Positions 22,135-60,926 of a stretch of 64,000 nucleotides of DNA are shown piece after piece. The notes under the pieces were generated by a model. That model did no database searches, was not told where the DNA came from, and saw only the letters and a list, made by a program, of their open reading frames with translations. Both the position numbers and the translations under genes were made by a program. Position 1 is the stretch's first letter; every line of letters starts with the position of its first letter. Source of the DNA: Ornithinibacillus caprae (GTDB lineage Bacteria > Bacillota > Bacilli > Bacillales > Amphibacillaceae). Location: NCBI RefSeq assembly GCF_009728145.1, contig NZ_WOCA01000019.1, positions 1 to 64,000 on the forward strand. Direction: 5' to 3'.

Positions 22135-22177
22135 AAAAGGCACGATCATCTAAAAAGAGATGATCGTGCCTTTTTGG
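22135..22177 (+). terminator. Strong terminator of the protease operon
   Basis: A perfect 15-base stem (AAGGCACGATCATCT with its mirror), a six-base loop and a T run. It partly overlaps the start of the repeat at 22173. Confidence 0.92.
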
Positions 22178-22265
22178 CAGATAAGAAATTATATGCTTTC
22201 TTATGCTGCAAAAGTGCAACTAAGGCTTTTGCCATAAAGGTTTGGCAAAAGCCAAGTTTTCTAAT
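22173..22265 (-). repeat. Two-hairpin dispersed element, copy E
   Basis: This is the same element as at 44350, 47508, 57825 and 60894, in the opposite orientation. The linker GCCTTAGTTGCACTTTTGC is shared exactly with copy A. The arms of the first hairpin differ from the other copies (CTTTTGCCA instead of ATTCACCA), yet both arms changed together so pairing is kept. Confidence 0.75.
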
Positions 22266-22268
22266 TTA

Positions 22269-24215
22269 TCACACACGGAAAAACTTCGTTAACTGCTTTG
22301 GTGGTAAAGGTTTACTGAAATAAAACCCTTGCATTTCATCACATCTTTCCTGTGTTAAGAAGTTAAATTGTTCCATTGTCTCCACTCCTTCAGCGATCAC
22401 TTTCATATTTAGGGAATGAGACATATGAATAATGGATTTAACGATTGCTTTATTTTCTCTTTGTTCATCCTTTAAGAACATTTTATCTATTTTCAACTTA
22501 GTAATTGGGAATAAGCTTAAGTATTTAAAAGATGAATATCCAGTACCGAAATCATCAATCGATACAAGTACACCCAAATCTCTTAAGTCCTTTAATGTCT
22601 TTAATATATAATCTTCATTAGACATAGCCATACTTTCCGTTATCTCAAGCTCTAGGTAATATGGAGAAAGACCTGTTTCAGCCAAAATTTCTTTAATTTT
22701 ATCAACCAGACTTCTTTGATGGAACTGCTTCGCAGATAAATTAACACTCACCGTAACAGGATCATACCCTTTATCCTGCCACACTTTATTCTGCTTACAG
22801 GCTTCATACAATACCCAATCACCAATTTCAATGATTAAGCCTGTTTTTTCAGCCAGCGGAATAAACTCAGCCGGTGCAATATATCCTTTTTGTGGGTGAT
22901 TCCATCTTAATAAAGCTTCTAACCCTACCACTTTTCCTGAACTAAGATTTTTTTGAGGTTGATAATGTAGCTCAAATTGCCCTTCTCTTAGTGCCTTCCG
23001 TAATTCTGTTTCCATCGTTAAACGCATTTTAAAGTTTTCAGAGATAGATGAATCAAACAAATTATAATTATTACGATGTTTCTCTTTAATAACATACATT
23101 GCCGAATCAGCATGTTTGATCAAATCATTCGCATTCGTACCATTCTCTGGAAAAATACTAATCCCTATACTTATAGAAGTATAAATTTCATAATCTTCAA
23201 TTTTAATTGGTTTTTCAAACGCAGCTATTATCTCTTCTGCTAGATCAACTGCCGCCTCTTTCGTGGATGCAAGTCGGTGTAGAATTAGAAATTCATCACC
23301 GCTCATTCTAGCAATAAAGGTGTTCATATCTAAGAAGGATTTTAACCTTTCTCCACATGCTGTTAATAATTTATCTCCAAAAGAGTACCCTAAGGTATCA
23401 TTTATTTCCTTAAAGTAATCCAAATCAATGAAGTAAACAGCTAATATTTCACCCGATTTTTTTGCCTCATCAACGGCCTCTTTTAATACTTTGTTAAAAA
23501 AATTACGGTTTGGAAGATCTGTTAATTCATCATAGTAAGCCATATACTCAATCTGATTTTCATTCATAACACGCTCTGTAATATCTTTGAAACTTGCTAC
23601 TTGGATAATGGATCCTTGGTTATTGTATGGATAATCAATGACTTCAACATGGAATTTTGATCCATCCTTCTGTATTCCAATTAATTCATATGGGTTAACT
23701 GAATTCTGATTACTGAGCTTTACAATACTCTTTTGATCAATGAGACGAGTAATTTCCATCCCTTTCATCTCAGAAACAGAATACCCAAACATAGTTGCAA
23801 AGTTAGGATCACAATCAATAATATGATGTTCCCCAAACATAACAATACCTTCTTTATCAGCAAATGTATTTTCATTTATATACTTTTTAATCTCTTCTGA
23901 CTTATCTTGTAAAGACAATGGATGTACGATTAGACAAAATACATTATTAGAAACTAGAATTGATTTTACTTCTAGCAAACTTCCCTTTTTGTTTCTTTGA
24001 TCCATTAAAAGATGAACCTCATTGGATTCCTTAAGTAAATCAAAGTCTATGAAGTCAAATATCGATATGCCCTGTAGGCTTTCCAAACCCAAGACAGAAT
24101 TAGCCTTGTTATTTGTTTCAATTATTTCTCCGTCATCTTGTACAAAAAGGACAGCTTCCTTTAAGGAGGATAATATTCGATTATGCATAGGTAGTACTGT
24201 TTTACCATTTGTCAT
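22269..24215 (-). CDS. PAS-GGDEF-EAL cyclic-di-GMP signalling protein
   Basis: A 648-residue cytosolic protein with two PAS-like domains (about 10-110 and 120-215), a GGDEF domain (220-385) and an EAL domain (395-645). The GGDEF signature reads SGDEF (near 305). The EAL domain keeps its catalytic set: EALLRW (near 432), NLSAKQF, ELEITES, DDFGTGYSS, KIDKMF, AEGVET and QGFYFSKP. So phosphodiesterase activity is likely; cyclase activity is uncertain. TAGGAGA lies eight bases before the ATG. It is 36 bases downstream of ktrD on the same strand, so a shared transcript is possible. Confidence 0.9.
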   Translation of the reverse strand: MTNGKTVLPMHNRILSSLKEAVLFVQDDGEIIETNNKANSVLGLESLQGISIFDFIDFDLLKESNEVHLLMDQRNKKGSLLEVKSILVSNNVFCLIVHPLSLQDKSEEIKKYINENTFADKEGIVMFGEHHIIDCDPNFATMFGYSVSEMKGMEITRLIDQKSIVKLSNQNSVNPYELIGIQKDGSKFHVEVIDYPYNNQGSIIQVASFKDITERVMNENQIEYMAYYDELTDLPNRNFFNKVLKEAVDEAKKSGEILAVYFIDLDYFKEINDTLGYSFGDKLLTACGERLKSFLDMNTFIARMSGDEFLILHRLASTKEAAVDLAEEIIAAFEKPIKIEDYEIYTSISIGISIFPENGTNANDLIKHADSAMYVIKEKHRNNYNLFDSSISENFKMRLTMETELRKALREGQFELHYQPQKNLSSGKVVGLEALLRWNHPQKGYIAPAEFIPLAEKTGLIIEIGDWVLYEACKQNKVWQDKGYDPVTVSVNLSAKQFHQRSLVDKIKEILAETGLSPYYLELEITESMAMSNEDYILKTLKDLRDLGVLVSIDDFGTGYSSFKYLSLFPITKLKIDKMFLKDEQRENKAIVKSIIHMSHSLNMKVIAEGVETMEQFNFLTQERCDEMQGFYFSKPLPPKQLTKFFRV

Positions 24216-24251
24216 AGATTTTATCTCCTAACTCCTTCAATCAAACCATAA

Positions 24252-25616
24252 TTATCCAATAATGATTCTTTCTTTTGGATAATGGAATTTTCCGTTTTGT
24301 TTATTATTTTTAAACATAAATAAAAAAGTAATAATCCCTACCCTACCAATAAACATTAAGATCATAAGAAGAATTTTACTAAACGTTGTCAATTCTCCAG
24401 TAATACCTAATGACAGCCCTACTGTACCGAAAGCTGATGTTATTTCAAATAAGATTTCGGCAAGGGTAAACGGCTCGACTATTGATATCATTAATACCGA
24501 TATAAATACTGTCATAATCGCCATTAACGTTACCGTTACAGCCTTCATTAAATCAGATTCATGTACTTCTCGTTTAAATATACGTATACTATTTCCACCT
24601 CTAGCATACGTTATGATGAAAATAACAACTAATGCAAATGTTGTTGTTCGTATCCCACCACCGGCACTACTAGGTGAAGCACCTATAAACATAAGGAAAG
24701 ACATAAATATATGATTTTGCTCCGTTAGCTGGCTAACATCCATGGTTGATAATCCCCCACTTCTAGTAGTTACAGATTGAAACAACGCATAGAACAACGC
24801 CTCATGCCAGGTTTTATCAGCAAAGAAATTCCCCATGTCAAATAAGTAAATAAATAATGTTCCAATAACAATTAAAAACAAAAAGGTCGTAGTCGTTAGT
24901 TTTGTAAATAAACTAAAACGCATAAAATTTCTCTTATCATATTTCGCAAATAAAAAATCTTTCACTTCTATTAAAACTGGAAATCCGATAGCTCCGAAAA
25001 CGATCAATAGAATATGTACAAATTGCACAAAATAATCGTTTTGAAACGGCACTAAGGACTCGCCAGTAATATCAAATCCACCATTTGTTATACCACTAAT
25101 GGTACTAAAAAAACCATTTAAATAAGCTTCTCCAGCTGTAGGAAAGTACTGCAAGTAATATGTACCTAGAATAAGGAATCCAATCAATTCAATGGTTAAT
25201 AATACAAGAAAAATTTGTTTGATTAGACGAACCATTCCTTCGAATGTTGTTTGATTCTGATCGGTCATAATCAATCTACGTTCTTTTAAACCAATTTTCT
25301 TGCCTAAAATGAGCCAAATAGAAGTACCTATCGCCATTACTCCAACTGCACCTAACTGCATAATAAGGGCTAAAATAATAATACCAGTTGTACTCAGTGT
25401 GTCTGCAACTGTAATCGTACTTAAACCAGTTACACTTAAAGCACTTATAGCAGTAAATACTACATCGATAAATGGTATGCTTACTCCTTTTTGATACGCT
25501 ACGGGTAATGCTAATAATGCAGTAGATACAACTGCTGCAAGAAAATAAAAAAGAAAGATCATTCGAACTGGAGACAAATTCTGTATCCATCGAAAGAAGA
25601 AATTCGAACTAAACAT
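24252..25616 (-). CDS. ktrD: KtrD/KtrB-type potassium channel subunit
   Basis: A 454-residue TrkH-superfamily protein that forms the potassium-conducting pore. Four P-loops are visible, each with the central glycine: ALSVTGLST, SGITNGGFD, VTTRSGGLS and SAFGTVGLS. The gating loop between repeats holds SSAGGGIRTTT. Length fits KtrB/KtrD (about 445-455). A good AAGGAG precedes the ATG. The regulatory subunit KtrC is encoded at 195-863; pairing them follows B. subtilis and is inference here. Confidence 0.92.
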   Translation of the reverse strand: MFSSNFFFRWIQNLSPVRMIFLFYFLAAVVSTALLALPVAYQKGVSIPFIDVVFTAISALSVTGLSTITVADTLSTTGIIILALIMQLGAVGVMAIGTSIWLILGKKIGLKERRLIMTDQNQTTFEGMVRLIKQIFLVLLTIELIGFLILGTYYLQYFPTAGEAYLNGFFSTISGITNGGFDITGESLVPFQNDYFVQFVHILLIVFGAIGFPVLIEVKDFLFAKYDKRNFMRFSLFTKLTTTTFLFLIVIGTLFIYLFDMGNFFADKTWHEALFYALFQSVTTRSGGLSTMDVSQLTEQNHIFMSFLMFIGASPSSAGGGIRTTTFALVVIFIITYARGGNSIRIFKREVHESDLMKAVTVTLMAIMTVFISVLMISIVEPFTLAEILFEITSAFGTVGLSLGITGELTTFSKILLMILMFIGRVGIITFLFMFKNNKQNGKFHYPKERIIIG

Positions 25617-25816
25617 AACTAATACTCCTTAAGTGCCTATTCTTATATCGGCTAGATTGGTTATTATTATAGCAGTTCTAGACAAGAATTTCCTCTATTT
25701 TCGACAAAATTACATATTCACTATACAATTAATAGAGAAGAATATAAAGTAATATGAAAAAATTTAAAATTTTATGAGCTTTCACCCCTAAATATTTTGT
25801 GTTCAGGAGGTTGATC

Positions 25817-26926
25817 ATGGAATTAACAGCTGAATTAGGAACGAAAATTATTGACGAAACAAAGAAACTAATCGATGAGAATATTATTATAGTAGATAAA
25901 GAAGCAACCATTATTGCGAGTACTGACACCACACGTATTGGAGACTTTCATGAAGGTGCAAAGCAAACGATAGAAAAGAACACGGTAACGATTTTAACTA
26001 GTGAGCATCAAAAGAGCATGAAAGGAATTAAACCTGGAGTTAATTTGCCAATAACCATTCATAAAGAAGTAATCGGTGTGATTGGTATTACTGGAAATCC
26101 AACTGAGATCATACCCTTCGCCTCCTTAATGAAAAAAATGACAGAGTTGCTAATTCGAGAAAGTATGTATATCCATGAATCTGAATGGGCTGCAAGAGCT
26201 TTAGAAGTATTTTTTCTTGATTGGGTACAGCTAGAGACCGTACCTCAAGATTTTATTCAACGTGCTGAAGTTTTAGGAATTAACCTAAAATCCAAACTAC
26301 TCTGTACATTAATATATATTCATCAAAACAATGATGCTCACAATATGAATGAATTAATAAACTGGTTGGAATTAACGCTAGATAGTACAGTAGTCAGATG
26401 GGGAAATGATCGATTACTAATGGTTACAGAAGAAAAGCAACGTAATGCTTCAGCGAACTACTTACTTTCAGCCCTAGATTCCTTTAAGTCCTATGCCGAG
26501 TCTAACTATGGTAGTAAATTATCCATCGGTGTTGGTACAGTTTTTGATACAAAAGCAATCAAACCTTCTTACCAAAGGGCTGAAAAAGCTTTAAGAGTCG
26601 CAATGAATACCAATAGTATCATTTTTTATGAAGATCTATTATTAGAAATTTGTTTAGATGATGTAGATGAATCCATAAAAGTTGAATTTATCAATCGTAT
26701 TATTACACCTCTAAAAAAAGAACCTGAATTACTAAACACACTTAGAGCTTATCTAAACAATAATCTCCATGTGAAAAATACTTCATTAGAGTTGCATATA
26801 CACATAAACACACTACATTATCGATTGAAACAAATTCATCAGCTAACGAATCTTAATCCAAGAGATACCTATTCCATTGCGTCGTTTTATACTGCACTTT
26901 ACTATTTAGATGAAAAAACAAATTAA
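25817..26926 (+). CDS. CdaR-family transcriptional regulator
   Basis: A 369-residue regulator with an N-terminal diacid_rec sensor domain (1-130), a middle GGDEF-like degenerate region typical of CdaR (about 150-280) and a C-terminal PucR-type helix-turn-helix (310-365, containing LELHIHINTLHYRLKQI). AGGAGG six bases before the ATG at 25817 fixes the start over a GTG at 25799. It lies directly before glcD-glcF in the same direction, as in the B. subtilis ysfB-ysfC-ysfD set. It probably activates them in response to glycolate or a related acid (inference). Confidence 0.88.
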   Translation: MELTAELGTKIIDETKKLIDENIIIVDKEATIIASTDTTRIGDFHEGAKQTIEKNTVTILTSEHQKSMKGIKPGVNLPITIHKEVIGVIGITGNPTEIIPFASLMKKMTELLIRESMYIHESEWAARALEVFFLDWVQLETVPQDFIQRAEVLGINLKSKLLCTLIYIHQNNDAHNMNELINWLELTLDSTVVRWGNDRLLMVTEEKQRNASANYLLSALDSFKSYAESNYGSKLSIGVGTVFDTKAIKPSYQRAEKALRVAMNTNSIIFYEDLLLEICLDDVDESIKVEFINRIITPLKKEPELLNTLRAYLNNNLHVKNTSLELHIHINTLHYRLKQIHQLTNLNPRDTYSIASFYTALYYLDEKTN

Positions 26927-26936
26927 TATTGTTTTT
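26912..26936 (+). terminator. Weak A/T stem-loop after the regulator
   Basis: AAAAAACAA pairs with TTGTTTTTT across a short AT loop. It is at the end of the regulator gene and could partially separate it from glcD. Confidence 0.4.
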
Positions 26937-27015
26937 TCGTCTTTTTTTTGTATTATCATCTATATAATTCTAGTGATTGATTCTATAAAATGAAAATAAA
27001 AAAGTTAGGAGCTAA

Positions 27016-28431
27016 ATGATGCTTACGGAAAATATAATCAAGACCCTGCAGAAAATTGTTGGTAGTGAAAATGTAGATTGTAAGAAATCAAGTTTACTAG
27101 TATATTCCTATGATGCTACCCCGCAATTTCAATCCCCACCAGATGCAATCGTATCACCAAGAAACACCAAAGAAGTGTCGGAAATAATAATACTTTGTAA
27201 TAAACACCATATCCCTATTGTACCAAGGGGGTCAGGTACCAACCTAAGCGCCGGAACAACTCCTCTAGAAGGTGGAATTGTCTTATTGTTTAAACATATG
27301 GATCAAATTCTTGAAATCGATGAAGAAAATTTAACCATTACGACTCAACCTGGGATTATTACAAAGGATTTAATTGAATTTGTTGAATCAAAAGGATTGT
27401 TTTATCCTCCAGATCCTAGTTCCATGAAAATCTCTCAAATCGGCGGTAATATAAATGAAAATTCTGGGGGATTACGTGGTTTAAAGTACGGAGTTACACG
27501 TGACTATGTATTGGGATTAGAAATCGTGCTACCTAATGGAGATATCATTCGTACAGGAGGAAAATTGGCTAAAGATGTAGCTGGATATGACTTAACTAGA
27601 TTATTTGTTGGCTCAGAAGGAACGCTTGGAATTATTACAGAAGCTACTTTGAAATTAATACCAAAGCCAGAAACGAAAAAAACAATGTTAGCATTATACC
27701 AAGATCTTGATGCAGCCGCGAGATCTGTATCTGCGATCATCGCCAATCGAATAATACCTGCAACACTTGAGTTTTTAGATCAACCTACCTTACAAGTAGT
27801 GGAAGACTTTGCTCAAATCGGACTTCCTACTGAAGTAAAAGCGGTTTTATTGATCGAACAAGATGGATCCCCTGCAATTGTTGAGAAAGATATGAATAAA
27901 ATCGCAGACATCTGTCGAGAAAATAATGCGGTAGAAGTTTCTATTGCTAAAACCTATGAAGAAGCTGAAGCACTAACAACTGCTAGAAGGGCTGCTCTTT
28001 CCGCATTAGCACGCTTGAAACCAACTACTATCCTTGAAGATGCTACGGTTCCACGATCTGAAATAGCCAATATGGTCAAAGCAATCGAAGAAATTGCCCA
28101 AAAACATCATGTTAAAATCTGCACTTTTGGCCATGCTGGGGATGGTAATTTACACCCTACTTGTTTAACCGATATCCGTAATGAAGAAGAAATTGAACGC
28201 GTAGAAAAAGCTTTTGAGGAGATATTTCATAAAGCGATTGAACTTGGGGGAACTATTACTGGGGAGCATGGTGTTGGTGCGATGAAATCTGCTTATTTAC
28301 ACTTAAAAGTTGGAAGTGCTGGAGTCGAAGCTATGAAACAGATCAAACATTCCTTGGACCCAAACAACATTATGAATCCTGGTAAAATATTCGCAAAATC
28401 GGAACGAAAAAGAGTGGTGGTAGCTAGGTGA
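27016..28431 (+). CDS. glcD: Glycolate oxidase FAD subunit GlcD
   Basis: A 471-residue FAD-linked oxidase that oxidises glycolate (or D-lactate) to the keto acid. The N-terminal PCMH FAD-binding domain (40-220) has PRGSGTNLSAG and the C-terminal cap carries FGHAGDGNLHP and TGEHGVGAMK. It works with the iron-sulfur subunit encoded next; the two genes overlap by one base at TGATG. AGGAG precedes two adjacent ATG codons. It is the ysfC orthologue by length and context. Confidence 0.92.
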   Translation: MMLTENIIKTLQKIVGSENVDCKKSSLLVYSYDATPQFQSPPDAIVSPRNTKEVSEIIILCNKHHIPIVPRGSGTNLSAGTTPLEGGIVLLFKHMDQILEIDEENLTITTQPGIITKDLIEFVESKGLFYPPDPSSMKISQIGGNINENSGGLRGLKYGVTRDYVLGLEIVLPNGDIIRTGGKLAKDVAGYDLTRLFVGSEGTLGIITEATLKLIPKPETKKTMLALYQDLDAAARSVSAIIANRIIPATLEFLDQPTLQVVEDFAQIGLPTEVKAVLLIEQDGSPAIVEKDMNKIADICRENNAVEVSIAKTYEEAEALTTARRAALSALARLKPTTILEDATVPRSEIANMVKAIEEIAQKHHVKICTFGHAGDGNLHPTCLTDIRNEEEIERVEKAFEEIFHKAIELGGTITGEHGVGAMKSAYLHLKVGSAGVEAMKQIKHSLDPNNIMNPGKIFAKSERKRVVVAR

Positions 28432-29753
28432 TGAAAACTATAGAAAAGCAAAACATTCAACATGAATTTAAAGAAAAAATGGATTACGATGAATTGTTAA
28501 ACTGTATGCGCTGTGGATTTTGTTTACCTAGCTGCCCTACCTATATTGAGTCAGGAAAAGATGAAGCACACTCTCCTCGTGGAAGAATTGCTATGATGAA
28601 AGCAGTCGTTGACGGAGACCTCGAACCTGATGAAGATGTGAAACGCTCTTTAGATCTTTGTTTAGGTTGCAGGGCCTGTGAACCAGTTTGTCCATCTGGT
28701 GTAAAGTATGGTCATCTATTGGAGCAAGCTAGAGATATTATTTATCAAAACAAAAAGCAATCCATACCGGAAAAGACAGTTCGACACCTGGTATTCGACC
28801 AACTCTTTCCCCATCAAAAGAGAATGATTGGGTTTACTAGTTTAGTTGGATTTTATCAACGTTCTGGCCTTCAAAAACTAGCAAGAAATACCGGAGCAAT
28901 GAAAATCTTACCTGCAAATTTACAAGCAATGGAAAAAGTGTTACCAGCAATTCCTAAGAAAAAGGAAATGAAAAACCGAACTAGACATATACCAGCATTT
29001 GCAGAAAAAAAGAAAAAAGTTGCTTTTTTTGCAGGTTGTTTAATGGACACCGTCTTTCTTTCAACCAACGATTCCACAACAAAGCTACTCCAACATGCCG
29101 GATGTGAAATCGTTGTTCCCGATACACAAGGCTGTTGTGGAGCATTGCATGGCCATAGTGGAGAAAGAAATAAAGCAAAAAAAATGGCGAAAAAAAATAT
29201 TCAAGCATTTGAAGAATCAGAAGTCGATTATATTATTACAAACGCCGGTGGCTGTGGGGCTTTTCTAGTTGATTATGGTCATCTATTAAACGATGATCCA
29301 TACTGGGCTGAACGAGCTGCTGCTTTTTCAGAAAAGATCAAAGACATTTCAAGTATATTAATCGAATTAGAATTTCATAAACTTGACTTACAAGTAGATG
29401 AACAAATAGTTACGTATCAGGATTCTTGTCATTTGAAAAATGGTCAGAAAACCTTTATGGAGCCACGTCAGTTGCTACAATCTATTAAAGGTGTAACCTA
29501 CGTTGAAATGCAGGATGCAAGCAGATGTTGTGGCTCAGCAGGGATTTATAATATTGTGGAATCCGAGATGTCCATGCAAATTCTCGACTATAAAATGGAA
29601 CAAACAAAGAAAACTAAAGCGAAAACAATCGTCACTGCTAACCCTGGTTGTCTTTTACAAATGAAGTTAGGTATCGACCGAGAAGGTTTGCGGGAAGAGA
29701 TGGAAGCAGTTCATATCGTTGACTTCTTATTACGAGCATTGGAAAAAAATTAA
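28431..29753 (+). CDS. glcF: Glycolate oxidase iron-sulfur subunit GlcF
   Basis: A 440-residue iron-sulfur protein that passes electrons from GlcD to the respiratory chain. Two 4Fe-4S motifs lie near the N-terminus: CMRCGFCLPSCPT and CLGCRACEPVCPS. Two CCG domains follow, with DTQGCCGALHGH and DASRCCGSAGIY. Translation probably starts at the ATG that overlaps the glcD stop, with a GTG one codon earlier as the alternative. No third subunit gene (GlcE) is present, as usual in Bacilli. Confidence 0.92.
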   Translation: MKTIEKQNIQHEFKEKMDYDELLNCMRCGFCLPSCPTYIESGKDEAHSPRGRIAMMKAVVDGDLEPDEDVKRSLDLCLGCRACEPVCPSGVKYGHLLEQARDIIYQNKKQSIPEKTVRHLVFDQLFPHQKRMIGFTSLVGFYQRSGLQKLARNTGAMKILPANLQAMEKVLPAIPKKKEMKNRTRHIPAFAEKKKKVAFFAGCLMDTVFLSTNDSTTKLLQHAGCEIVVPDTQGCCGALHGHSGERNKAKKMAKKNIQAFEESEVDYIITNAGGCGAFLVDYGHLLNDDPYWAERAAAFSEKIKDISSILIELEFHKLDLQVDEQIVTYQDSCHLKNGQKTFMEPRQLLQSIKGVTYVEMQDASRCCGSAGIYNIVESEMSMQILDYKMEQTKKTKAKTIVTANPGCLLQMKLGIDREGLREEMEAVHIVDFLLRALEKN

Positions 29754-44274: not shown

Positions 44275-44349
44275 CTTTAGTACATTTTTTATTGTAGACT
44301 AAATATTACAAAAAGTAAATATTTTTAATATTCATCGATTTTCTTGTTA

Positions 44350-44440
44350 GAAAACTTGGTATTCATCAAATCTTTATGGTGAATGCCTTAGTTGCACTTT
44401 TGCAGAATAGGAAAGTGTATAATTCTTTTCCCGCCAAGAA
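44350..44440 (+). repeat. Two-hairpin dispersed element, copy A
   Basis: Starts AAAACTTGG, then a hairpin (ATTCATCA with TGGTGAAT), the linker GCCTTAGTTGCACTTTTGC, and a second, partly decayed hairpin (AGGAAA with TTTTCC). It is shared with copies at 22173, 47508, 57825 and 60894. Confidence 0.78.
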
Positions 44441-47445: not shown

Positions 47446-47507
47446 TAATAAACACTCCTTTTTCCACAGTATAGAATAAATGACTAATTTATGAAATAGT
47501 CTGGAAT

Positions 47508-47590
47508 AAAACTCGGCATTCACCAAGCCTTTATGATGAATGCCTTAGTAGCAATTATGTAGGATAAGAAAATTTCTTACCCTACCAAAA
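47508..47590 (+). repeat. Two-hairpin dispersed element, copy B
   Basis: First hairpin CATTCACCA with TGATGAATG, linker GCCTTAGTAGCA, and second hairpin GTAGG.TAAGAAA paired with TTTCTTA.CCTAC. The second hairpin differs from copies C and D at matched positions on both arms, so pairing is kept. Confidence 0.78.
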
Positions 47591-47591
47591 G

Positions 47592-47624
47592 AAAAAGATA
47601 GCCTCTTGAGAAGCTATCCTTTTG
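47592..47624 (-). terminator. Terminator of thiT
   Basis: AAAAGGATAGC pairs with GCTATCTTTTT on the minus strand across a ten-base loop, then runs into T-rich sequence. Confidence 0.82.
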
Positions 47625-47639: not shown

Positions 47640-48215
47640 TTATGCTGCCGTACTTAGTAAGGCTTTTGGTTGCTTATTAAATAAGAAGAAGACAACAACC
47701 GTACATAAAATGATTGACGGCACAATGTAAGAGATATTATAAATTAATGAATATACCCAGATGTTTGTAAATTCTGGTGGCATATACTCTGCAAAGAAAA
47801 CAACTCCTGCAACAAAATGCGCAGCAAATCGTAACATAGAACCTATGATAATCCCAAATGTTATATATGTTAGATAGGTTTTCGTTTGCCCTTCTTTAAG
47901 AGCTTCTTTAATTTGCTTAGCAAAGACACCAGCAAATCCTAATACGGTAAATGCTACAATATAATCTAGAAAACCTTGAACTGGGTGCATAATCCATGCG
48001 CCAAACGGAATTTGTAATGCTCCCCAAATAAGGCCCGCAAGCAGTCCACCTTTTATCCCCCAGCGGAATGCTACAATAAAGATTGGAATCATTGCAAATG
48101 AGATAGACCCACCTTGCGCCCAAATCTTAAACGATAATGGAATAATATCAAGTACTAAAGCTAAAGCAGCAAAAATGGCCACCTCAATTAAAAATAAAGT
48201 TTTTTTCGAATTCAT
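47640..48215 (-). CDS. thiT: ThiT, thiamine-specific ECF transporter S component
   Basis: A 191-residue membrane protein with six helices, the size of ThiT (YuaJ). The family's N-terminal block LALVLDIIPL and the GGSISFAMIPIFIVAFRWG segment match, and GVVFFAEYMPPE lies in the loop known to bind thiamine. It takes up thiamine together with the shared EcfAA'T module encoded elsewhere. A TPP riboswitch upstream confirms the role. GGGGAGG precedes the ATG. Confidence 0.93.
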   Translation of the reverse strand: MNSKKTLFLIEVAIFAALALVLDIIPLSFKIWAQGGSISFAMIPIFIVAFRWGIKGGLLAGLIWGALQIPFGAWIMHPVQGFLDYIVAFTVLGFAGVFAKQIKEALKEGQTKTYLTYITFGIIIGSMLRFAAHFVAGVVFFAEYMPPEFTNIWVYSLIYNISYIVPSIILCTVVVFFLFNKQPKALLSTAA

Positions 48216-48331: not shown

Positions 48332-48349
48332 AATCCATCAAAAAAGCCA

Positions 48350-48437
48350 CCATCCCTACGCTAGTACTAACTAACAGGTTCAAAGGGTCAGAACATTACT
48401 CATGTTCACTCTCAGCCATTCGGCTCCCCCTGTAGGC
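48350..48437 (-). ncRNA. TPP riboswitch (THI element)
   Basis: Read on the minus strand, the conserved parts come in order: CAGGGGGAGC, GGCTGAGA, a variable stem, GACCC(T)TTGAACCTG, and GCGTAGGGA. The closing stem pairs 48432-48436 with 48355-48359. Thiamine pyrophosphate would stabilise the fold and favour the terminator at 48274, shutting off thiT. Confidence 0.95.
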
Positions 48438-48560
48438 TTTACATTCACTTTTTTTGCTACAAGTATTGTAACCTACTTTTCAGATATTTACAATGAAAGA
48501 TTATTTGACCTTTTTCTAGCGCTTCTCTTTTGGAATTATCGACCTTGGCAACAAAGAAAA

Positions 48561-53552: not shown

Positions 53553-53557
53553 TTAGA

Positions 53558-54553
53558 TCACTCATTTACCATAGCATCGACTAATGTTTCTGTAAGTACT
53601 TTCGCTGATAATGTACCACCAAATGTCCACGTATCTCCTGGTAATTGATGTGTATTACCTTCTTGAACAAAGCTCAGATTTTCCCATACTGGATTTCCTT
53701 TTAGTTGATTTTCAAAGATATTGTCATCTTCTTGTACAATATATAGGAATTGAAGGTTTTCCTCTTGGAAATTTTGTAATGCTTCAACGTTTACTTCACT
53801 ATAGCCGTATACTTCAACTGTATCAGATTCATACGCATTTTCAAACCCTAAATTATTCATTACTTGAGCTACCATGGAATTATCCGTAAAGAGTCGAATT
53901 ACGGGTGTGTTTTGGGCAGAGTATGCCTGGGTTGCGATATATGTTGCGCCTTCTAAGTCTGCTTCTACAACACGTTCTTTTTGATCTTCCAAAAATTGTT
54001 CCAAGTCAGCTAACACGCTTTCAGCCTCTTCTTCCTGATCAACGATTGTAGCAACGGTTTGGAACTCATCAATCATATTTTGATAATGATCCTGAATCGC
54101 CTCTTCTCCATATGGAGCAAACGTAACGACAGGTGCTATATCTCCTAAACTATCTAAAAACTGTTCATGTCTAAAATCCACCGCAATAATTAAATCGGGG
54201 TTAAGTCTTGAAATTGCCTCCAAATTAGGTTCTTGACGTGTACCAACATCCTCTACACTTTCATCAAATTCTGCATCAATATTCACCCACTGATGAAAAC
54301 CATCTAAATCAGCAACCCCTGCTGGTTGAATTCCTAAAGCAAGTAAGTGCTCTGCATACGACCATTCCAATACTACAATGTTTTCAGGTATTCCTGTGAT
54401 CGTTTGTTCTCCTATTGCATCCTCAATGGTTACTGTACGATCTTGATCTGTATTTGTATCATTTGTTTCGTCATCCTCTGTGGTATCGTTTCCACCACAT
54501 GCTACCAGTAATGTTAACGCAATCATAAACAATAGACTGATTAATTTTTTCAT
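53558..54553 (-). CDS. Siderophore-binding lipoprotein
   Basis: A lipoprotein of about 331 residues of the FecB/FhuD class: signal with lipobox (LLVACGG), acidic Asp/Glu/Thr linker, then a PBP-like domain (45-330) with EAISRLNPDLIIAVDFRHEQ. It should capture ferric siderophore and deliver it to the fused permease. The second ATG (54553) is eight bases from TAGGAG; the first (54559) is too close to it. The ligand is unknown. It is in the Fur-controlled cluster. Confidence 0.9.
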   Translation of the reverse strand: MKKLISLLFMIALTLLVACGGNDTTEDDETNDTNTDQDRTVTIEDAIGEQTITGIPENIVVLEWSYAEHLLALGIQPAGVADLDGFHQWVNIDAEFDESVEDVGTRQEPNLEAISRLNPDLIIAVDFRHEQFLDSLGDIAPVVTFAPYGEEAIQDHYQNMIDEFQTVATIVDQEEEAESVLADLEQFLEDQKERVVEADLEGATYIATQAYSAQNTPVIRLFTDNSMVAQVMNNLGFENAYESDTVEVYGYSEVNVEALQNFQEENLQFLYIVQEDDNIFENQLKGNPVWENLSFVQEGNTHQLPGDTWTFGGTLSAKVLTETLVDAMVNE

Positions 54554-54564
54554 TTTCATTTCTC

Positions 54565-55167
54565 CTATCTAATGGTTGATGTTTGAATCCACTCCATGGA
54601 TTCTGTAATTGGTGTTCTCTCTTTCCCTTTAGGTAATTTGTTCGGATAACCAACCTGAACAACTGCAACTAAACGTTGGTTATGAGGATTTAAACCAATA
54701 TCACGTATGAATACTTCATCCCGTAATGTTTCCTTTGCAGTCCACATCGTTCCTATCCCTTTTTCCCAAGCTAATAATTGAAAATTTTGTATGAATGCAC
54801 AGATAGCTGCATAATTCTCATCATCTATATAACCACCATCATCTTCCTTGTCCATATAAAAAAGAATATGGTGTGGAACAGAATTAAAAAAGCGATCATA
54901 CGCTTTTCGAGCTTTCCTTAACTTCTCCTCATTCAACGTTTTTAACAAACCTAATCTTATGTAACTATCTACTACCTTTTCACCAAAAACAGATCGAGCC
55001 TCGTCCTCATATATTTTAAGTTTCCACGGCTCTTTCATATGATGATTTGGGGCGTAGGAAGCATGACTTAGCAGCTCTACTAATAAATCTCGTTCTACTT
55101 TCTTAGGTTTATAATCTAATATAGTTCTTCTACCCCTGATAATATCCACTAAATTAATTTCACTCAC
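54565..55167 (-). CDS. Nitroreductase-family flavoprotein
   Basis: A 200-residue protein of the FMN nitroreductase family: IIRGRRTILDYKPKKV at the N-terminus, HHMKEPWKLKIY and EKGIGTMWTAKETLRD. First gene of the siderophore uptake operon, 11 bases before the binding-protein gene's reading frame. Start uncertain: GTG at 55167 has only a weak site, and a GTG six codons later lies far from AGGTGAG. Being Fur-controlled, it might act in reductive iron release or siderophore handling, but this is inference. Confidence 0.82.
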   Translation of the reverse strand: MSEINLVDIIRGRRTILDYKPKKVERDLLVELLSHASYAPNHHMKEPWKLKIYEDEARSVFGEKVVDSYIRLGLLKTLNEEKLRKARKAYDRFFNSVPHHILFYMDKEDDGGYIDDENYAAICAFIQNFQLLAWEKGIGTMWTAKETLRDEVFIRDIGLNPHNQRLVAVVQVGYPNKLPKGKERTPITESMEWIQTSTIR

Positions 55168-55173
55168 CTACTT

Positions 55174-55200
55174 AAATGATAATGAGAATCTTTATCATTT
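55174..55200 (-). promoter_or_regulatory. Fur box of the siderophore operon
   Basis: An inverted repeat AAATGATA...TATCATTT with a GATAATGAGAATC core, matching the Fur consensus. It stands directly before the nitroreductase start, where Fur would block the promoter when iron is plentiful. Confidence 0.85.
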
Positions 55201-55264
55201 ATATTATATACATATGATACATATGTCAATAAAAATTTTGTTGAATATCACACGCGATGTATCC

Positions 55265-56131
55265 TTATTCTGCTTTACTTTCGACGGATTCTGAAGAAAA
55301 TACTCGAATAATAATTCTCCCTTCATTTGCTTTAGCACGTATTAAGATTGGATGGTTATATTCATTTTTAAATGTAAAGTCCGGCCCCCACCAGCTAACT
55401 GTTGCATCTTTACCAGGTGGAACATACGGCACATTTCTACTATGAGAATAACGCTCTAATATCGATATACCCTCTAAATCAACTGCATTAAATAACGTTG
55501 ATGATACCTGACAAATACCACCTCCGATGTCCTCCGACAATTCACCCCTTACAATGACAGGAGCTCGTTTATAGCCTCTTTCTTTTGTCCGTTTCCCAAC
55601 CACTTTATTAAATGAAAATTCTTCACCTGGAAAAACAACCGTATTATTAATTGCTTCTGCAGCAAGTTCAATGTTATGAGATCTTTCCTTATTACTTTTC
55701 TTAAAATAAGTCGTATAACTTCCCAATAAATGATTACGTATCTCAGATAACAACTCCCCATCTATCCTAGGATAAATCTTTTTTTGGGGTACACTTATTT
55801 GAAAAGACACATCTGAATAAAAAAAGTCATGAAACCGCTCATATAGCTTCCTCCGATCTAGAGCTAACCCTGGTTTTTCAGGAATGATTTCCTCTCGATC
55901 GTTAATATAAGCATTCTTCGGTTCTTGATATACTTGTTCTTCGATCCGTTTAAAAAGTATATCCAACTTATCCTGATCGATAAATAGAGGTTCTACCGTA
56001 TCAATAGAAAAATGATCACGTACAATTGTTTCACTAACCTGTTCATCTTTTATGACTAAAGTATTGGCTGTTACCGTAGTTGTAGTTACATATAGGACCA
56101 AAAGTATGCAAATAAAAACTTTTTTCAACAT
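55265..56131 (-). CDS. VanW-family exported protein
   Basis: A 288-residue protein with a signal peptide or anchor (5-24), a helical middle region and a C-terminal VanW domain (about 150-270) with FNKVVGKRTKERGYKRAP, GGGICQVSSTLFNAV and YSHSRNVPYVPPGKDATV. VanW proteins are surface proteins of unknown activity, often tied to the cell wall. GAGGAGGTG precedes the ATG at 56131. The gene is monocistronic. Confidence 0.88.
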   Translation of the reverse strand: MLKKVFICILLVLYVTTTTVTANTLVIKDEQVSETIVRDHFSIDTVEPLFIDQDKLDILFKRIEEQVYQEPKNAYINDREEIIPEKPGLALDRRKLYERFHDFFYSDVSFQISVPQKKIYPRIDGELLSEIRNHLLGSYTTYFKKSNKERSHNIELAAEAINNTVVFPGEEFSFNKVVGKRTKERGYKRAPVIVRGELSEDIGGGICQVSSTLFNAVDLEGISILERYSHSRNVPYVPPGKDATVSWWGPDFTFKNEYNHPILIRAKANEGRIIIRVFSSESVESKAE

Positions 56132-56191
56132 ATCAACACCTCCTCTTGTTAGTATTAATCCGATATGTAAAAGCATGTACAAAAGTATAAG

Positions 56192-56230
56192 AAAAAACGC
56201 TGGTAAAATCGTGGAATCGATTTTACCAGC
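56192..56230 (-). terminator. Terminator of the 32-residue gene
   Basis: GCTGGTAAAATCG pairs perfectly with its mirror over a six-base loop and is followed by TTTTTT on the minus strand. Confidence 0.9.
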
Positions 56231-56242
56231 GCTTAAAATATA

Positions 56243-56341
56243 TTATCTAAAATCTCGTTTATCTTCTATCCTTCTACTAGCCAACATATAACCAACTAAT
56301 GAAGCTAGTCCAGCAATTATCCAATAACAAGTTCGTTTCAT
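56243..56341 (-). CDS. 32-residue single-helix membrane peptide
   Basis: A very short gene with AAAGGAGGA nine bases before its ATG and a strong terminator just past its stop. The product has one hydrophobic helix (6-21) followed by a charged tail ASRRIEDKRDFR. I do not recognise it. The tight signals on both sides make it a credible gene. It is 31 bases downstream of the NDH-2 gene, so it may be read from the same transcript. Confidence 0.65.
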   Translation of the reverse strand: MKRTCYWIIAGLASLVGYMLASRRIEDKRDFR

Positions 56342-56371
56342 TAATTATTCCTCCTTTAGGAGTCCTGTATT

Positions 56372-57583
56372 TTAGAATGGACGAATTTTTCCTTTTTTCA
56401 AGAATAAGTTTAAACCACCCAATAAAAATAGATAACGATTATCTACAACCTTTTTCATGGCTGCTGCAGGTTTACCATATAATTTTGTCCCTCCGAAAAC
56501 AGTTCCCATCGCATCAGTGACACCAAGGGATGCCACAGTACCTTTATCACTAAAGACAAAGTTTTCTAGTGGCTGATGATGCAATAAAGCTTTTATATTA
56601 TTAGCACATGTTGTTGCATGCTGCATTGCAGCTTGAGCTGTTGGCGGGTATGGACGACCCTCTTTTTCATTCATTACCCAAGCACAGTCACCTAGGACAA
56701 ATATATTTTCCTCTCCGGGTGCACGTAAATCACTATTTACCGTTACTTTTCCACGAGTTAATTCAAAACCAGAATTACCTAATACTGAATTCCCGGTAAC
56801 CCCACCAGTCCAAACAACAGTACCTGCTTTAATTAATTCATTTCCTTCACCAACAATAAATCCTTCTTTCGTGCAGGATTGAATTTTGGCACCTTCTCTG
56901 AACTCAACACCTCGGGATTCCAATGATTTTTTCGCATAAGCAACTAACTCTTCGTCAAACCCTGGTAATATCGATGGAGAAGCCTCTACATTGATAATTT
57001 TGGGGATATTGCGGTCAATATCATATTTTCTACAAAGCTGCGGAACGCGTTCTGCTAGTTCTCCTACAAACTCCACACCAGTAAAGCCGCCTCCACCAAC
57101 TAAGATCGTTAGACTGTGATCCTCTTTTGCTTCACTATTTTTGTACTGAGCAAATTGATATTCAATATGTTCACGTATTAATTGACTTGAGTCGATGTCT
57201 TGAATGAAAAAGGCGTGCTCCTCCATCCCTTTAATCCCAAATGTGTTTGTTTCAAATCCAAGGGAAATAACTAGATAGTCATAATTCACTTCACTATTTT
57301 CTAGAACAACTTGCTGCTGTTCCCGTTTAACTTCAACTACACTGTCATATATCAAACGGACGCGATTAGGATCAATAATATCACTAATCATGATTCTTGC
57401 TAGATTGTGGTTAATCGTACCAGCAGCAACCTCATGTAACCAAGTAGTTTGATAATGGTAATTATGTTTATTTATTAATACAATATCTGCTTCTTCTGGA
57501 TGTAGTTTCTGCATCAATTTTTTAGTCGTCATCATACCAGCATAGCCTGCACCTAGGACAACTATTTTCGGTTTAGAATTCAT
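56372..57583 (-). CDS. Type II NADH dehydrogenase (NDH-2)
   Basis: A 403-residue FAD enzyme that passes electrons from NADH to menaquinone at the inner face of the membrane without pumping protons. The FAD motif VVLGAGYAGMM, the NADH-binding motif VGGGGFTGVEFVGEL, and the PYPPTAQAAMQH and GTVASLGV segments are intact. The C-terminal amphipathic region that docks on the membrane is present. It is most like B. subtilis YumB/YjlD; which one cannot be decided by eye. Confidence 0.9.
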   Translation of the reverse strand: MNSKPKIVVLGAGYAGMMTTKKLMQKLHPEEADIVLINKHNYHYQTTWLHEVAAGTINHNLARIMISDIIDPNRVRLIYDSVVEVKREQQQVVLENSEVNYDYLVISLGFETNTFGIKGMEEHAFFIQDIDSSQLIREHIEYQFAQYKNSEAKEDHSLTILVGGGGFTGVEFVGELAERVPQLCRKYDIDRNIPKIINVEASPSILPGFDEELVAYAKKSLESRGVEFREGAKIQSCTKEGFIVGEGNELIKAGTVVWTGGVTGNSVLGNSGFELTRGKVTVNSDLRAPGEENIFVLGDCAWVMNEKEGRPYPPTAQAAMQHATTCANNIKALLHHQPLENFVFSDKGTVASLGVTDAMGTVFGGTKLYGKPAAAMKKVVDNRYLFLLGGLNLFLKKGKIRPF

Positions 57584-57824
57584 TCATTCCCATCCTTTCT
57601 AATTTTAATAGTTATACTACATTCTCTTAACTGTAAAGATATGTGTGCTAATTTCCAATGAATACCAATATGAACTTATAGTTATCTTAGCAAATTTTGT
57701 TCAAATAGGCTAATCATGTAGAAGTTATGTTTTCCAACATATTTTATGATGTCTAAAATGAAAGGTATCATGCGAGAAAAAGGAAAAGAACTAATGAATA
57801 GTCAACAATGATACGTAATCATTA

Positions 57825-57900
57825 GAAAACTTGGTATTCGCCAAGCCTTTATGGTGAATCTTATGCAGGATAGGAAAGTTTATATTTTCCTATCTGCTAA
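57825..57900 (+). repeat. Two-hairpin dispersed element, copy C
   Basis: In the 360-base gap before the NDH-2 gene. First hairpin TATTCGCCA with TGGTGAAT; the linker is shortened; second hairpin GATAGGAAA with TTTCCTATC, a perfect nine-base stem. Nothing else is seen in 57584-57946. Confidence 0.78.
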
Positions 57901-57946
57901 AACATTTAACCGATACATTTGTAAAATGGGCCGGTTTATGAATTGA

Positions 57947-59389
57947 CTACCATACATCTCCTCGTTCGTCTTTTCGCTTTTTCATTTCCTCTGTCCATTC
58001 ATTTACACGCTCTTTGATTTCATTAGCTACCTCATCGATCTCTTCTATTTTATCGGAGCGAATATTTCTCCACTCATCTACACGTGCTCCATAACGTTCA
58101 CTGATTAAATCTTGTAATACTCCCCGCTTGTCATCTAGAATAAGTTCTTTTTCTCTGATTATATGTAAAGCGTAATCATAGCGCTCACGTTCTTTGTCTA
58201 TAATAGTTTTAATCTTTTGATGGTCTGTATCGTATTTTTCTCTTTCATCTAAGATCTCCCATGGGCCAGGTGCTTTTGTAAATGCCCATGCCAAATCAAT
58301 TCTGGATGGAAGCCATTCATATTCAATAGTTTGTTTTAATTCAGTAGCATCATCAGCTGAATAGTATTCCCCGTTACCTGCCTCGGAAACATTCTTTAAT
58401 TGTTCCTCAGCATCTTGATCAACATCAAAGCCAATAATATTGACTGAGCGATGCTCATTTTGTTCCACAAAATTTTCTGCTGCATGAACAGGATCCCCAT
58501 CACAGGTTTCCACGCCATCACTAACAATATATAGTGTAATGGCTCCATCAACATTCGTGCTCATTTCCGCAGCCTTATGAATAGCACCTGCTAAAGGAGT
58601 CCAACCTTTACTTTCAAAGGTAGATAAGGATGCTTCGAAATTATCTTTGTTGTACGCACCCATTTCATAGATTTTTTCAATTCCATTACACGATAATTCC
58701 TTGTCTGCGCTCGATTCTGATCCTTGATGACCATAAACAACTAAGGATACTTCATTATCTTGACCGATAACATCCGCAAATCGCTTTACTGCATCTTTTG
58801 CAATGTCCATTTTGACTTCCCCATCTACACTTAGAAGCATACTTGAACTTGCATCCAACAAAATAATTGCCTTTCCAGCCTCTGGTTCAAGTTCAATCTC
58901 CTCTTTCGTTTTTCCTGGATAAGGAAGATATGGCTCTTCAAAATCTGGTTCAAACTCCTCTGCTTGTTCTAACACTTCTTTATAATTTGCTGTTCCTAAT
59001 AAAAATGCCAATCCCTTTTCAAGCTCAAATGGATCCTCGACCACCGTAGTTAATGTAACTAATTGCTCCCGTAACTCTTCATCTATTTCCTGTAAAAATG
59101 CGTCCATATCCAATTCTAGTTCATTCTCCAACGATACATCGTTAACCAATAAGCCACCTAGTTGGTCCTTCATTTCTTCCCTTGTTTCAGGTAATACGAT
59201 CGATTCCAGTTCTTCCATTACCTGAACAGCTTCTGGCTCAGACTGTTCTTCTTTTTTTTCTTCGGTCATAGCTGTTTTTTCTTCTCGTTCATTACCTTCC
59301 CCACCACTAACATCATTTGAGTCATCTTTACTACACCCAAAAAGTACTAACACTAATACGAACAAAATCGCAACTAAGCTTCTATACAA
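57947..59389 (-). CDS. VWA-domain lipoprotein
   Basis: A 480-residue lipoprotein with a lipobox (LFGC), a long acidic linker (25-80) and a von Willebrand A domain (about 168-345) whose MIDAS motif DASSSM and the later TPLA and SDGVETC elements are visible. The C-terminal 110 residues are highly charged and probably coiled. The start is TTG, seven bases after GGGGGAG. Its role is unknown; VWA domains usually bind proteins in a metal-dependent way. It stands alone. Confidence 0.85.
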   Translation of the reverse strand: MYRSLVAILFVLVLVLFGCSKDDSNDVSGGEGNEREEKTAMTEEKKEEQSEPEAVQVMEELESIVLPETREEMKDQLGGLLVNDVSLENELELDMDAFLQEIDEELREQLVTLTTVVEDPFELEKGLAFLLGTANYKEVLEQAEEFEPDFEEPYLPYPGKTKEEIELEPEAGKAIILLDASSSMLLSVDGEVKMDIAKDAVKRFADVIGQDNEVSLVVYGHQGSESSADKELSCNGIEKIYEMGAYNKDNFEASLSTFESKGWTPLAGAIHKAAEMSTNVDGAITLYIVSDGVETCDGDPVHAAENFVEQNEHRSVNIIGFDVDQDAEEQLKNVSEAGNGEYYSADDATELKQTIEYEWLPSRIDLAWAFTKAPGPWEILDEREKYDTDHQKIKTIIDKERERYDYALHIIREKELILDDKRGVLQDLISERYGARVDEWRNIRSDKIEEIDEVANEIKERVNEWTEEMKKRKDERGDVW

Positions 59390-59510
59390 GGCTAAACTCC
59401 CCCATTTCTACCCATTCACTATATCACTAAGATTGAATATATCTAGTTAATTTGTCAATATTACAAATTTCCTAAAAATTACATACGATATGACTTTTTG
59501 CCTACAAAAT

Positions 59511-59538
59511 AAAAAAGTCACGCAATTAGGTGACTTTT
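59511..59538 (-). terminator. Terminator of the SpoIID/LytB gene
   Basis: AAAGTCAC pairs with GTGACTTT over an eight-base loop, with TTTTTT on the minus strand. Confidence 0.85.
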
Positions 59539-59543
59539 TACAA

Positions 59544-60833
59544 TTATTTTGGAAGTACAATTGCATCATTTGCTAAATCCATAATGGTTGTTCCTGGATA
59601 ATAATAAGCTAGGATCTCCTTATAATCTTTCCCATTTTCGGCCATGTAATGTGCGCCCCACTGACTCATACCAACCCCATGACCATATCCTCTTCCCTTC
59701 ATCGTATATTGTTCATCGTCAGCTTCTAGTGAATCAATCAGATAGCTTTTAAAAATCGTACCACCAATCATTGGACGAATCTGATTTAAATTAATATCTT
59801 TTAGCTCCATTCGACGAAATAATACCGTTCCCTCGAATAATCTCTGCATAAACTCTACGGTAATGGAACCATTTTCACTTCGGCCAGATTCAAATGTATC
59901 ATCAGATAACTCAAAACTAGGAATCGAAAGGATTTTAATATCACCTGGATACCCATTCCGTTGTAACCAGCCTTTCATTGTTTCGGTAATATCAGTATCC
60001 TTTTCTTCCAGCTCATCCCACCAATTGAACTTGTCCCATTCTATTTTTTCAAGCTCTATTTGCGTTTGGTTTAACGTAAAATCCCATGGATGTGTTGGAT
60101 CATAGGGGTCATCCTTAACAGGAAAATACTGCATCGAGTTACCGCCCCATACATTTGCATTATTTTCTGTTACGCCTCCATTACTAGCCGAATAAAAGGT
60201 TTCAATTAATCGATTTTCATATGTAATCACTTCTCCTTTCGTTTCCTCTACTGCCTTGGTTGTGCTATCATCCCATGTATACCCTCCATAAACTTGGTAT
60301 TGGATAGTATCATTGATCACTTCATTTAGCTTTGACACCGCGTAAGTTCGTGCTGCTAATGTCTGAGCTTTTAATGTTTCAATCCCCCAAGAAGAGAATA
60401 CTTCAAATGGGACAACCCCTTTAAGATAATCCTCTAATGGAAGCTGATTTACCGGACGAATAAATTCATCCTTTTCTATCGTAAACTCCATTGCACCTAA
60501 ATATGGCCGATCATCAATATAAATTTGATGCTCTTCATTATATTTCTCAGGGATTAAAATAAATGGCCCATTTAGTTTTTGTTTTTCTCTTTTATTGTTT
60601 TCTTGCAAATATAGTGAACCCTTTTGGACAGATAACGTATATGTCACTCCTTCCTGTAATTGTAGAGTAGGGTCAAACGAAAAAAATTCTCTGTTCAATT
60701 TAAATTCCAATTCTGTCGCTTCACCGACATAGTTAACTAGTTTAACGGTGACCATTTCATCTGCTTGTAATACATTTGGAAACATGAATAAAAATAAAGT
60801 TGTAAGCAATAGGATATTTTTTTTCATATTCAT
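59544..60833 (-). CDS. SpoIID/LytB-domain exported protein
   Basis: A 429-residue secreted protein: signal peptide (about 1-24), an N-terminal beta region, and a SpoIID domain with LEDYLKGVVPFEVFSSWGIETLKAQTLAARTY in its conserved order, including the catalytic-type glutamate in VPFEV. The C-terminus has GRGYGHGVGMSQWGAHYMA. SpoIID is a lytic transglycosylase that trims peptidoglycan during engulfment; this vegetative-type relative (LytB group) may be active or modulate amidases. The ribosome site is weak. Confidence 0.88.
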   Translation of the reverse strand: MNMKKNILLLTTLFLFMFPNVLQADEMVTVKLVNYVGEATELEFKLNREFFSFDPTLQLQEGVTYTLSVQKGSLYLQENNKREKQKLNGPFILIPEKYNEEHQIYIDDRPYLGAMEFTIEKDEFIRPVNQLPLEDYLKGVVPFEVFSSWGIETLKAQTLAARTYAVSKLNEVINDTIQYQVYGGYTWDDSTTKAVEETKGEVITYENRLIETFYSASNGGVTENNANVWGGNSMQYFPVKDDPYDPTHPWDFTLNQTQIELEKIEWDKFNWWDELEEKDTDITETMKGWLQRNGYPGDIKILSIPSFELSDDTFESGRSENGSITVEFMQRLFEGTVLFRRMELKDINLNQIRPMIGGTIFKSYLIDSLEADDEQYTMKGRGYGHGVGMSQWGAHYMAENGKDYKEILAYYYPGTTIMDLANDAIVLPK

Positions 60834-60893
60834 ATTTTTTCTTCAGTAAGTAGGATTATGCAGGTAATTTCTAACAGGATATTAAAAACTAAG

Positions 60894-60926
60894 GCAGGAT
60901 AGGAAAGTTTATTCATTCCTATCTGC
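60894..60926 (+). repeat. Two-hairpin dispersed element, copy D (second hairpin only)
   Basis: Only the right half of the element is clear: GCAG-GATAGGAAA paired with TTCCTATCTGC. A short CTAAGG before it may be a remnant of the linker. It ends 11 bases before the pyrP promoter. Confidence 0.65.

Follow-up and report, generated by a model that had tools for sequence, protein, structure and literature searches.

A short two-hairpin element dispersed beside T-tracts, mostly of terminators, in Ornithinibacillus caprae and related genomes: a probable miniature mobile DNA element

Introduction

In a 64,000-nt stretch of the Ornithinibacillus caprae genome (contig NZ_WOCA01000019.1; this whole 64-kb stretch is called the window), a short sequence made of two hairpins recurs between genes. 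Does it spread as DNA, or does it belong to a family of structured RNAs that serve the cell? An earlier note on the same DNA had counted five copies, mostly next to terminators, and regarded matched changes in the two arms of each hairpin as a sign of selection on a folded form, leaving the choice between a non-autonomous mobile element and an RNA family open. We followed the element through the host genome and the genomes of relatives.

Five copies in the window

A covariance model (R1) was built from 31 host copies, including the window copies at 44347, 57821, and 22172. It recovered all five copies with E values from 7.8e-23 to 2.6e-6, and no sixth match was found in the window at E 0.001. 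The copies used to build R1 match by construction; the half copy (copy 5) was outside the building set. All five lie outside ORFs of 80 aa or more, as expected from the intergenic position claimed for them. The copies and their parts are as follows.

22177-22264 (match 22172-22264), minus strand: copy 1, complete, subfamily B, hairpin I arms GGCTTTTGCCA/TGGCAAAAGCC, R1 E 7.8e-23
3' side of copy 1, minus strand: T-tract and terminator of convergent genes adjoin (by eye)
44347-44434 (match 44347-44439), plus strand: copy 2, complete, subfamily A, end CCGC, R1 E 2.4e-20
44358-44387, plus strand: hairpin I of copy 2, arms 44358-44368 and 44377-44387, alignment register applied to the copy
44406-44431, plus strand: hairpin II of copy 2, arms 44406-44416 and 44421-44431, alignment register, poorly matched
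3' side of copy 2, plus strand: terminator-like stem next (by eye)
47504-47585 (match 47504-47594), plus strand: copy 3, shortened between the hairpin II arms, end CTAC, R1 E 4.5e-16
3' side of copy 3, plus strand: terminator of the gene at 47640-48215 (minus strand) next (by eye)
57822-57897 (match 57822-57902), plus strand: copy 4, right arm and linker short of 12 model positions, R1 E 7.8e-18
60894-60926 (match 60881-60931), plus strand: copy 5, a remnant of hairpin II only, followed by an A-run, R1 E 2.6e-6

The terminator placement in the window was borne out in part: by eye, a terminator hairpin touches the 3' end of the copies at 22172, 44347, and 47504, whereas at 57822 it is weak and at 60881 there is none. 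Likewise, the matched arms of hairpin II were seen in the reverse copy and in those at 47504 and 57822, whereas the match is poor in the copy at 44347.

Anatomy and ends of the unit

The element is about 88 nt long, gene-less and non-coding, and consists of 5'-TTAG, hairpin I, the linker CCTTAGTTGCACTTATGCAG, hairpin II, and CTGC-3'. Its 5' end reads TTAG-AAAACTTGG, directly before hairpin I. The ends in the plan first proposed were corrected to TTAG and CTGC/CTAC. Since these are the ends, the A-run that follows is target DNA and lies outside the element. In head-to-tail arrays of genomes G004 and G077, CTAC or CTGC is followed at once by TTAG (CTAG once), so both ends of the unit are fixed. 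In 50 copies, mainly from other genera and one from the host, the unit measures 86-91 nt; because the pattern used to find them itself required TTAG/CTGC-type ends, it is the arrays that provide real evidence for the ends.

Immediately 3' of the unit, C or T occurs in 45 of the 50 copies, then A in 44, then A in all 50, then the A-run, and the 5' flank has no comparable motif. The A-run touched by the 3' end of the element is the T-tract of the opposite strand. Read on that strand, the order is terminator hairpin-TTTTTR, junction, GCAG-hairpin II ... hairpin I-AAGTTTTCTAA, with a fixed TTTR before GCAG and a G as the first element base after the T-tract. The two hairpins are unlike in sequence and are not inverted copies of one repeat. 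End comparison of four types gave no convincing terminal inverted repeat (p 0.72, 0.14, 0.33, and 0.026), and no target duplication was seen by eye at the 50 junctions.

Hairpin I is longer in related species, where its arms reach AGAAAAACT/AGTTTTTCT; in a single G009 copy (L192) it starts almost at the first base. A long form with some 105-113 extra nt within hairpin I occurs in G005 and G003, and partial forms occur in G006 and G010. Among 11 genomes the insert matches itself and, weakly, G004 only; a good fold is seen for it in G003 (z -4.9), not in G005 (z -1.7).

Copy number and spread

Further copies were sought with BLAST and a covariance model, as the earlier note had proposed, and were found both in the host (at least 150) and in relatives. 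When 150 of 2886 host candidates were scored with R1, all 150 matched at E below 0.01 and 148 at E 0.001. Because every scored candidate matches, the host genome holds at least about 150 copies. This minimum of 150 copies in 4.16 Mb would place 2.3 in 64 kb, so that the window with its five carries about twice the number expected from it. BLAST with one copy, with 40 of 89 host candidates scored, gave 41 rows, of which 40 had E 4.2e-9 or better, including the query's own site.

A second model (R2) was used to scan 120 genomes of the family, representing 46 genera, at E 0.001 with stricter filters and up to 35 scored candidates per genome. It matched 49 genomes and 24 genera, the host included. 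Nine genomes reached this limit of 35, a lower bound for them. Firm matches (best E 1e-8 or better) came from 27 genomes of 12 genera; the remaining 22 genomes were matched more weakly, and some of these may be chance. The relatives have versions of their own; the same framework is kept in sequences from 19 genomes outside the genus, and the linker is conserved in many genera. A pattern scan of genomes returned six stretches, from Oceanobacillus, Paucisalibacillus, and Ornithinibacillus. No match was obtained in viral contigs with two core patterns, or in phages or plasmids with one G077 copy as query. Rfam gave no match in the window at gathering score. When nine loci, one of which holds five host copies, were searched up to E 1, no element was matched; three matches lie off the elements.

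Position relative to terminators and genes

R1 matches from 63 scanned sources provided 108 host rows, and the best 100 of these were used for terminator counts. A hairpin plus T-tract touched the 3' junction in 62 of the 100 copies and the 5' junction, in either sense, in 5, compared with 73 of 1000 random positions and 72 of 500 shuffled flanks; 38 copies had no terminator by this test. Other intergenic T-tracts of the same stretches carried such a hairpin in 344 of 1360 cases (25%). When only tracts of six or more were considered, the figures were 41 of 52 at elements versus 88 of 234 elsewhere, with a slight difference between the sets in how the tract was measured. Of the 50 copies mainly of other genera, 28 have a terminator at the 3' end and 7 at the 5' end, against 78 of 1000 random positions. 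Some copies lie at an A-run ahead of a likely ribosome-binding site (L320, L324, L327).

The flanking genes, taken as mechanical ORFs of 80 aa or more, were arranged relative to the element as -/- in 62 cases, +/+ in 16, +/- in 14, and -/+ in 13, with a stretch end in 3 (n=108). The downstream ORF is directed at the element in 77 of 107 cases and ends 30-70 nt away in 38 of these 77. The usual orientation is thus antisense to the 3' end of the neighbouring gene. Survival of harmless insertions may add to the terminator bias, without explaining the orientation. These data show a dispersed, intergenic element with fixed ends, lying in one orientation beside T-tracts that mostly belong to rho-independent terminators.

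Comparison of sites between genomes

The nearest genomes compared, G008 and G006, are 79% and 78% alike to the host over one gene region. Twelve host sites were anchored in G008 and eight of these were aligned; none of the eight has an element at the same place, and three look like a clean absence. The G008 spacer matching window positions 57822-57902 is 153 nt versus 233 nt in the host, where the element match is 81 nt. At L106:1899-1991 the spacer is 109 versus 200 nt, and the run GGAGGCTTTTTTTG is retained. At the site of the half copy (60881-60931), about 50 nt are missing and the A-run remains. The other five alignments are too diverged to display the junction, and no letter-exact empty-site junction was found among the eight. 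The flank composition at the 50 junctions, which were found with a pattern that itself fixes the ends, would agree with a one-sided target and no duplication.

Over 20 kb, G077 and G092 are 90-95% alike. They differ at one locus, where G077 carries two copies in tandem plus an older remnant and G092 carries, at the same A-run, a single degenerate copy; they share a second locus. From these sequences, the G077 locus may be read as a fresh insertion between the old copy and the T-tract, with loss or conversion as an alternative. Within G074 the copies closely resemble one another, as do most of those within G077. The mobile reading of the element is supported by copy number, fixed ends, arrays, element-free related sites, and the decay of copies described below. 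Of the two possibilities first left open, mobility is thus favoured and an RNA role is the less likely.

PF01797 genes as candidate mobilisers

REPINs and GTAG-tagged REPs are short extragenic palindromes with many copies, sometimes in tandem, that occur with RAYTs (REP-associated tyrosine transposases) and are thought to move as single-stranded DNA hairpins (PMC3116915, PMC3733652). Mobilisation of a REPIN-like element by a RAYT or IS200-type transposase that the same cell encodes would accord with the two hairpins, with the CTAC end of the G004 type (GTAG on the opposite strand, as in GTAG REPs), and with the presence of PF01797 (IS200/RAYT-type) genes in 10 of 11 genus genomes and 14 of 16 element-rich family genomes. 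However, 12 of 15 element-free family genomes also have PF01797 genes, which thus do not track the element. Among element-rich genomes, G024 has no such gene and G092 one marginal match; G009 has the element and no PF01797 match, whereas G007 has two PF01797 genes and no element match. No flanking pair of elements was present within about 1.5 kb on each side of 26 PF01797 loci of the genus and 30 of the family. The genus loci gave a single match (E 1.2), and one of the 30 family loci has an element, about 1.25 kb away from its IS200-type gene, plus one weak match. By eye, the RAYT-like genes carry other flanking repeats, and the ends of the present element, unlike those of a REPIN, are not inverted copies of one REP. 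Since these genes neither flank nor track the element, a RAYT or IS200-type mobiliser is unsupported, and we regard the REPIN-like explanation as unlikely.

Miniature derivatives of IS200/IS605 elements have hairpins near both ends, no inverted terminal repeats, and a short fixed target on one side. The present element resembles them in its hairpins and in the lack of inverted ends, and TTTR (on the opposite strand) may be its target on one side only. It differs in that no autonomous IS200/IS605 element with these ends was found among the PF01797 loci (56 loci scanned; ends read at seven, the IS200-type ones being different).

Covariation and decay of the hairpins

Covariation was tested on many aligned copies, as had been suggested. 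Across genera, 54 distinct rows were aligned to R2, a test that leans towards the fold because the rows were fitted to the structure and are related. Pairing was found in 88.4% of cells versus 78.9% after shuffling, and two-sided changes in 89 cells versus a shuffled mean of 29.1 (a level seen in 0 of 500 shuffles) and 4-23 in slid versions. The covariation across genera is found in hairpin I, where 8 of the 9 upper-stem pairs have two-sided changes. The number of pairs with any two-sided change is unexceptional: it is 11 versus 9.3 shuffled, and 56 of the 500 shuffles attain it. In the lower stem of hairpin I pairing is weak, at 70.6%, and a single pair shows a two-sided change; the different register of the host type accounts for part of this. 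RNAalifold on the first alignment gave 7 pairs only.

Within the host, 104 of the 108 rows were analysed after four with 20 or more gaps were dropped. They fall into two subfamilies of 60 and 38 rows, and 6 rows fit neither. The strongest covarying pairs (15-38, 18-35) divide the two subfamilies, and non-pairing columns (15-35, 70-81) also correlate with them. Of the private changes in hairpin I, 154 break a pair from one side, 63 are one-sided but leave it intact, and 30 are two-sided and leave it intact. In subfamilies A and B, respectively, substitution rates are 0.13 and 0.17 for hairpin I, 0.14 and 0.17 for hairpin II, 0.12 and 0.16 for loop I, and 0.12 and 0.11 for the linker; variation is higher in outer hairpin II and at the 3' end. 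Since stems change about as fast as loops, the structure is maintained in the multiplying lineages while most single copies decay. Within the subfamilies, pair-keeping two-sided changes in hairpin I exceed those in shuffles (13 versus 5.6, and 17 versus 5.4), a sign of additional small lineages or of some repair pair by pair; in hairpin II there is no excess in A (6 versus 6.8 shuffled) and little in B (5 versus 2.7).

The matched arm changes are therefore real across genera, but in the host they mostly mark the two subfamilies, and private changes mostly break pairs. Within-genome covariation was accordingly rejected as proof of selection on each copy, and the matched arms in the window do not show it. 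A structured RNA family under selection for a cellular role, as a transcript end, a small RNA, or a leader, would explain the cross-genus covariation, the linker conserved in many genera, and the placement beside terminators and sometimes ahead of ribosome-binding sites. It fits poorly with host stems that change as fast as loops and linker, with the usual antisense orientation, with the lack of an Rfam match in the scans above, and with a copy number that ranges in related genomes from about 150 to none. We consider this explanation quite unlikely.

A model for insertion at terminators

The best explanation is a miniature mobile DNA element, non-autonomous and about 88 nt long, that targets terminators; we assign this reading a probability of roughly 0.6. 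From its anatomy, the element would move as folded single-stranded DNA, and an HUH-type enzyme supplied in trans may cut and join the single strand. Three features fit a single-strand mechanism of the HUH type: GCAG is preceded by a fixed TTTR, both ends have a hairpin nearby, and inverted repeats are lacking. The target, a stem followed by a T-tract, resembles the right end of the element itself on the opposite strand (stem and T-run). Because both have this shape, one enzyme could recognise target and right end. Repeated entry at one T-tract would build the head-to-tail arrays. Helitrons, for comparison, end at the 3' side with a hairpin some 11 nt before CTRR; the opposite strand of the present element ends hairpin-AAGTTTTCTAA, which may be a resemblance. 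It is conceivable, and we hold it as a tentative possibility, that the element represents a new class, guided by its hairpins to the terminator shape that its right end shares and served by an enzyme other than IS200/RAYT, perhaps a group IIC-like reverse transcriptase.

A SINE-like retroelement would be a short structured RNA inserted by terminators through a group IIC-type reverse transcriptase acting in trans. The target of group IIC introns is a DNA stem-loop followed by a short T-rich stretch (IBS1) (PMC10190682), similar to the target here, and the present element also enters with the same polarity, with G as its first base after the T-tract. However, it has 88 nt without intron domains or a reverse transcriptase, and the Rfam scans of the window and nine loci gave no group II intron match, which makes this explanation very unlikely. 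An ordinary MITE of a DDE transposon, although the element is likewise small, non-coding, and dispersed, is most improbable in the face of ends lacking a convincing inverted repeat and of 50 junctions with no target duplication by eye.

Relation to known repeats and significance

The bcr1 and Bhal-1 repeats of Bacillaceae are, in the main text of PMC2267715, intergenic stem-loop repeats of about 70-170 bp with tens to about a hundred copies. By description, the present element is like them in kind, size, and number; Oceanobacillus is absent from that main text. No description of the element was found in the literature searched, which included the available text of PMC3733652, PMC2267715, PMC2864571, PMC3116915, and PMC10190682, with supplements and most subscription papers outside the search. 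The element is thus likely to be new to the literature.

The results carry a caution that matched changes in hairpin arms can mirror the subfamilies of a mobile element and not selection on each folded copy. If the present interpretation is true, a non-coding element that ranks among the most numerous of a bacterial family is missing from the sources searched, and its many natural insertions at a definite target, the ends of transcription units, would make the targeting of terminators by a minimal element testable.

Variant forms and strand of the element

With the G004 type set aside, most genera in the cross-genus alignment of element copies (A6) conserved CTTGG and CCAAG on either side of the variable arm in the element's 5' portion. 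These two motifs could pair into a small competing hairpin, which would have the GG in common with hairpin I. At loci L201, L202, L208, and L211 (genomes G005, G003, G006, and G010, respectively), the element occurred in a long version, complete or partial, with ~105-113 additional, hairpin-rich nucleotides within hairpin I. At one orthologous site, the long form was found in G003, whereas G001 carried the short form.

Among the matches listed for the one-contig genomes G074 and G114 (contig C1 of each), the strand of the element seemed to flip between chromosome halves. This apparent switch could be explained by gene direction.

Known RNA families and other repeats in the window and in compared loci

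The following features were noted in the window and in loci of the compared genomes.

Window 48336-48440 (-): TPP riboswitch
Window 60984-61128 (+): PyrR binding site
L208:1912-1986 (+): Bacillaceae-1 RNA in G006 (53.6 bits, exceeding the gathering score)
L208:668-851 (-): T-box match in G006, slightly under its gathering score
L106:4780-4960, 13630-13810, and 10315-10605: other repeats with numerous matches in G006 and G008
L296:5319-5811: tandem array of ~22-nt units of the GTTCCAGCTCTTCTGTTGAT type in G077
L296:9214-9406: another dispersed palindromic repeat in G077

The PyrR binding site is immediately preceded by the remnant element copy at window 60894-60926, and a partial element lies close to the Bacillaceae-1 RNA and the T-box match at L208. 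The repeat at L106:4780-4960, which may resemble the ends of IS605-type elements, directly precedes an element copy at L106:4963. Neither the ~22-nt tandem array nor the dispersed palindromic repeat of L296 was present at the corresponding place in G092.

Palindromic repeats around RAYT-like genes

Inspection by eye revealed short palindromic repeats, belonging to families other than the element, on both sides of genes resembling REP-associated tyrosine transposases (RAYT) at L160, L151, and other loci of the genus. The repeats beside the RAYT-like genes of the genus were read as GTGACAGGCACC or GGGACAGTCCC types, and those bordering the gene at L151 as the GGACCTGACCCC type. It is likely that the RAYT-like genes and their own palindromic repeats constitute a separate REP-like system.
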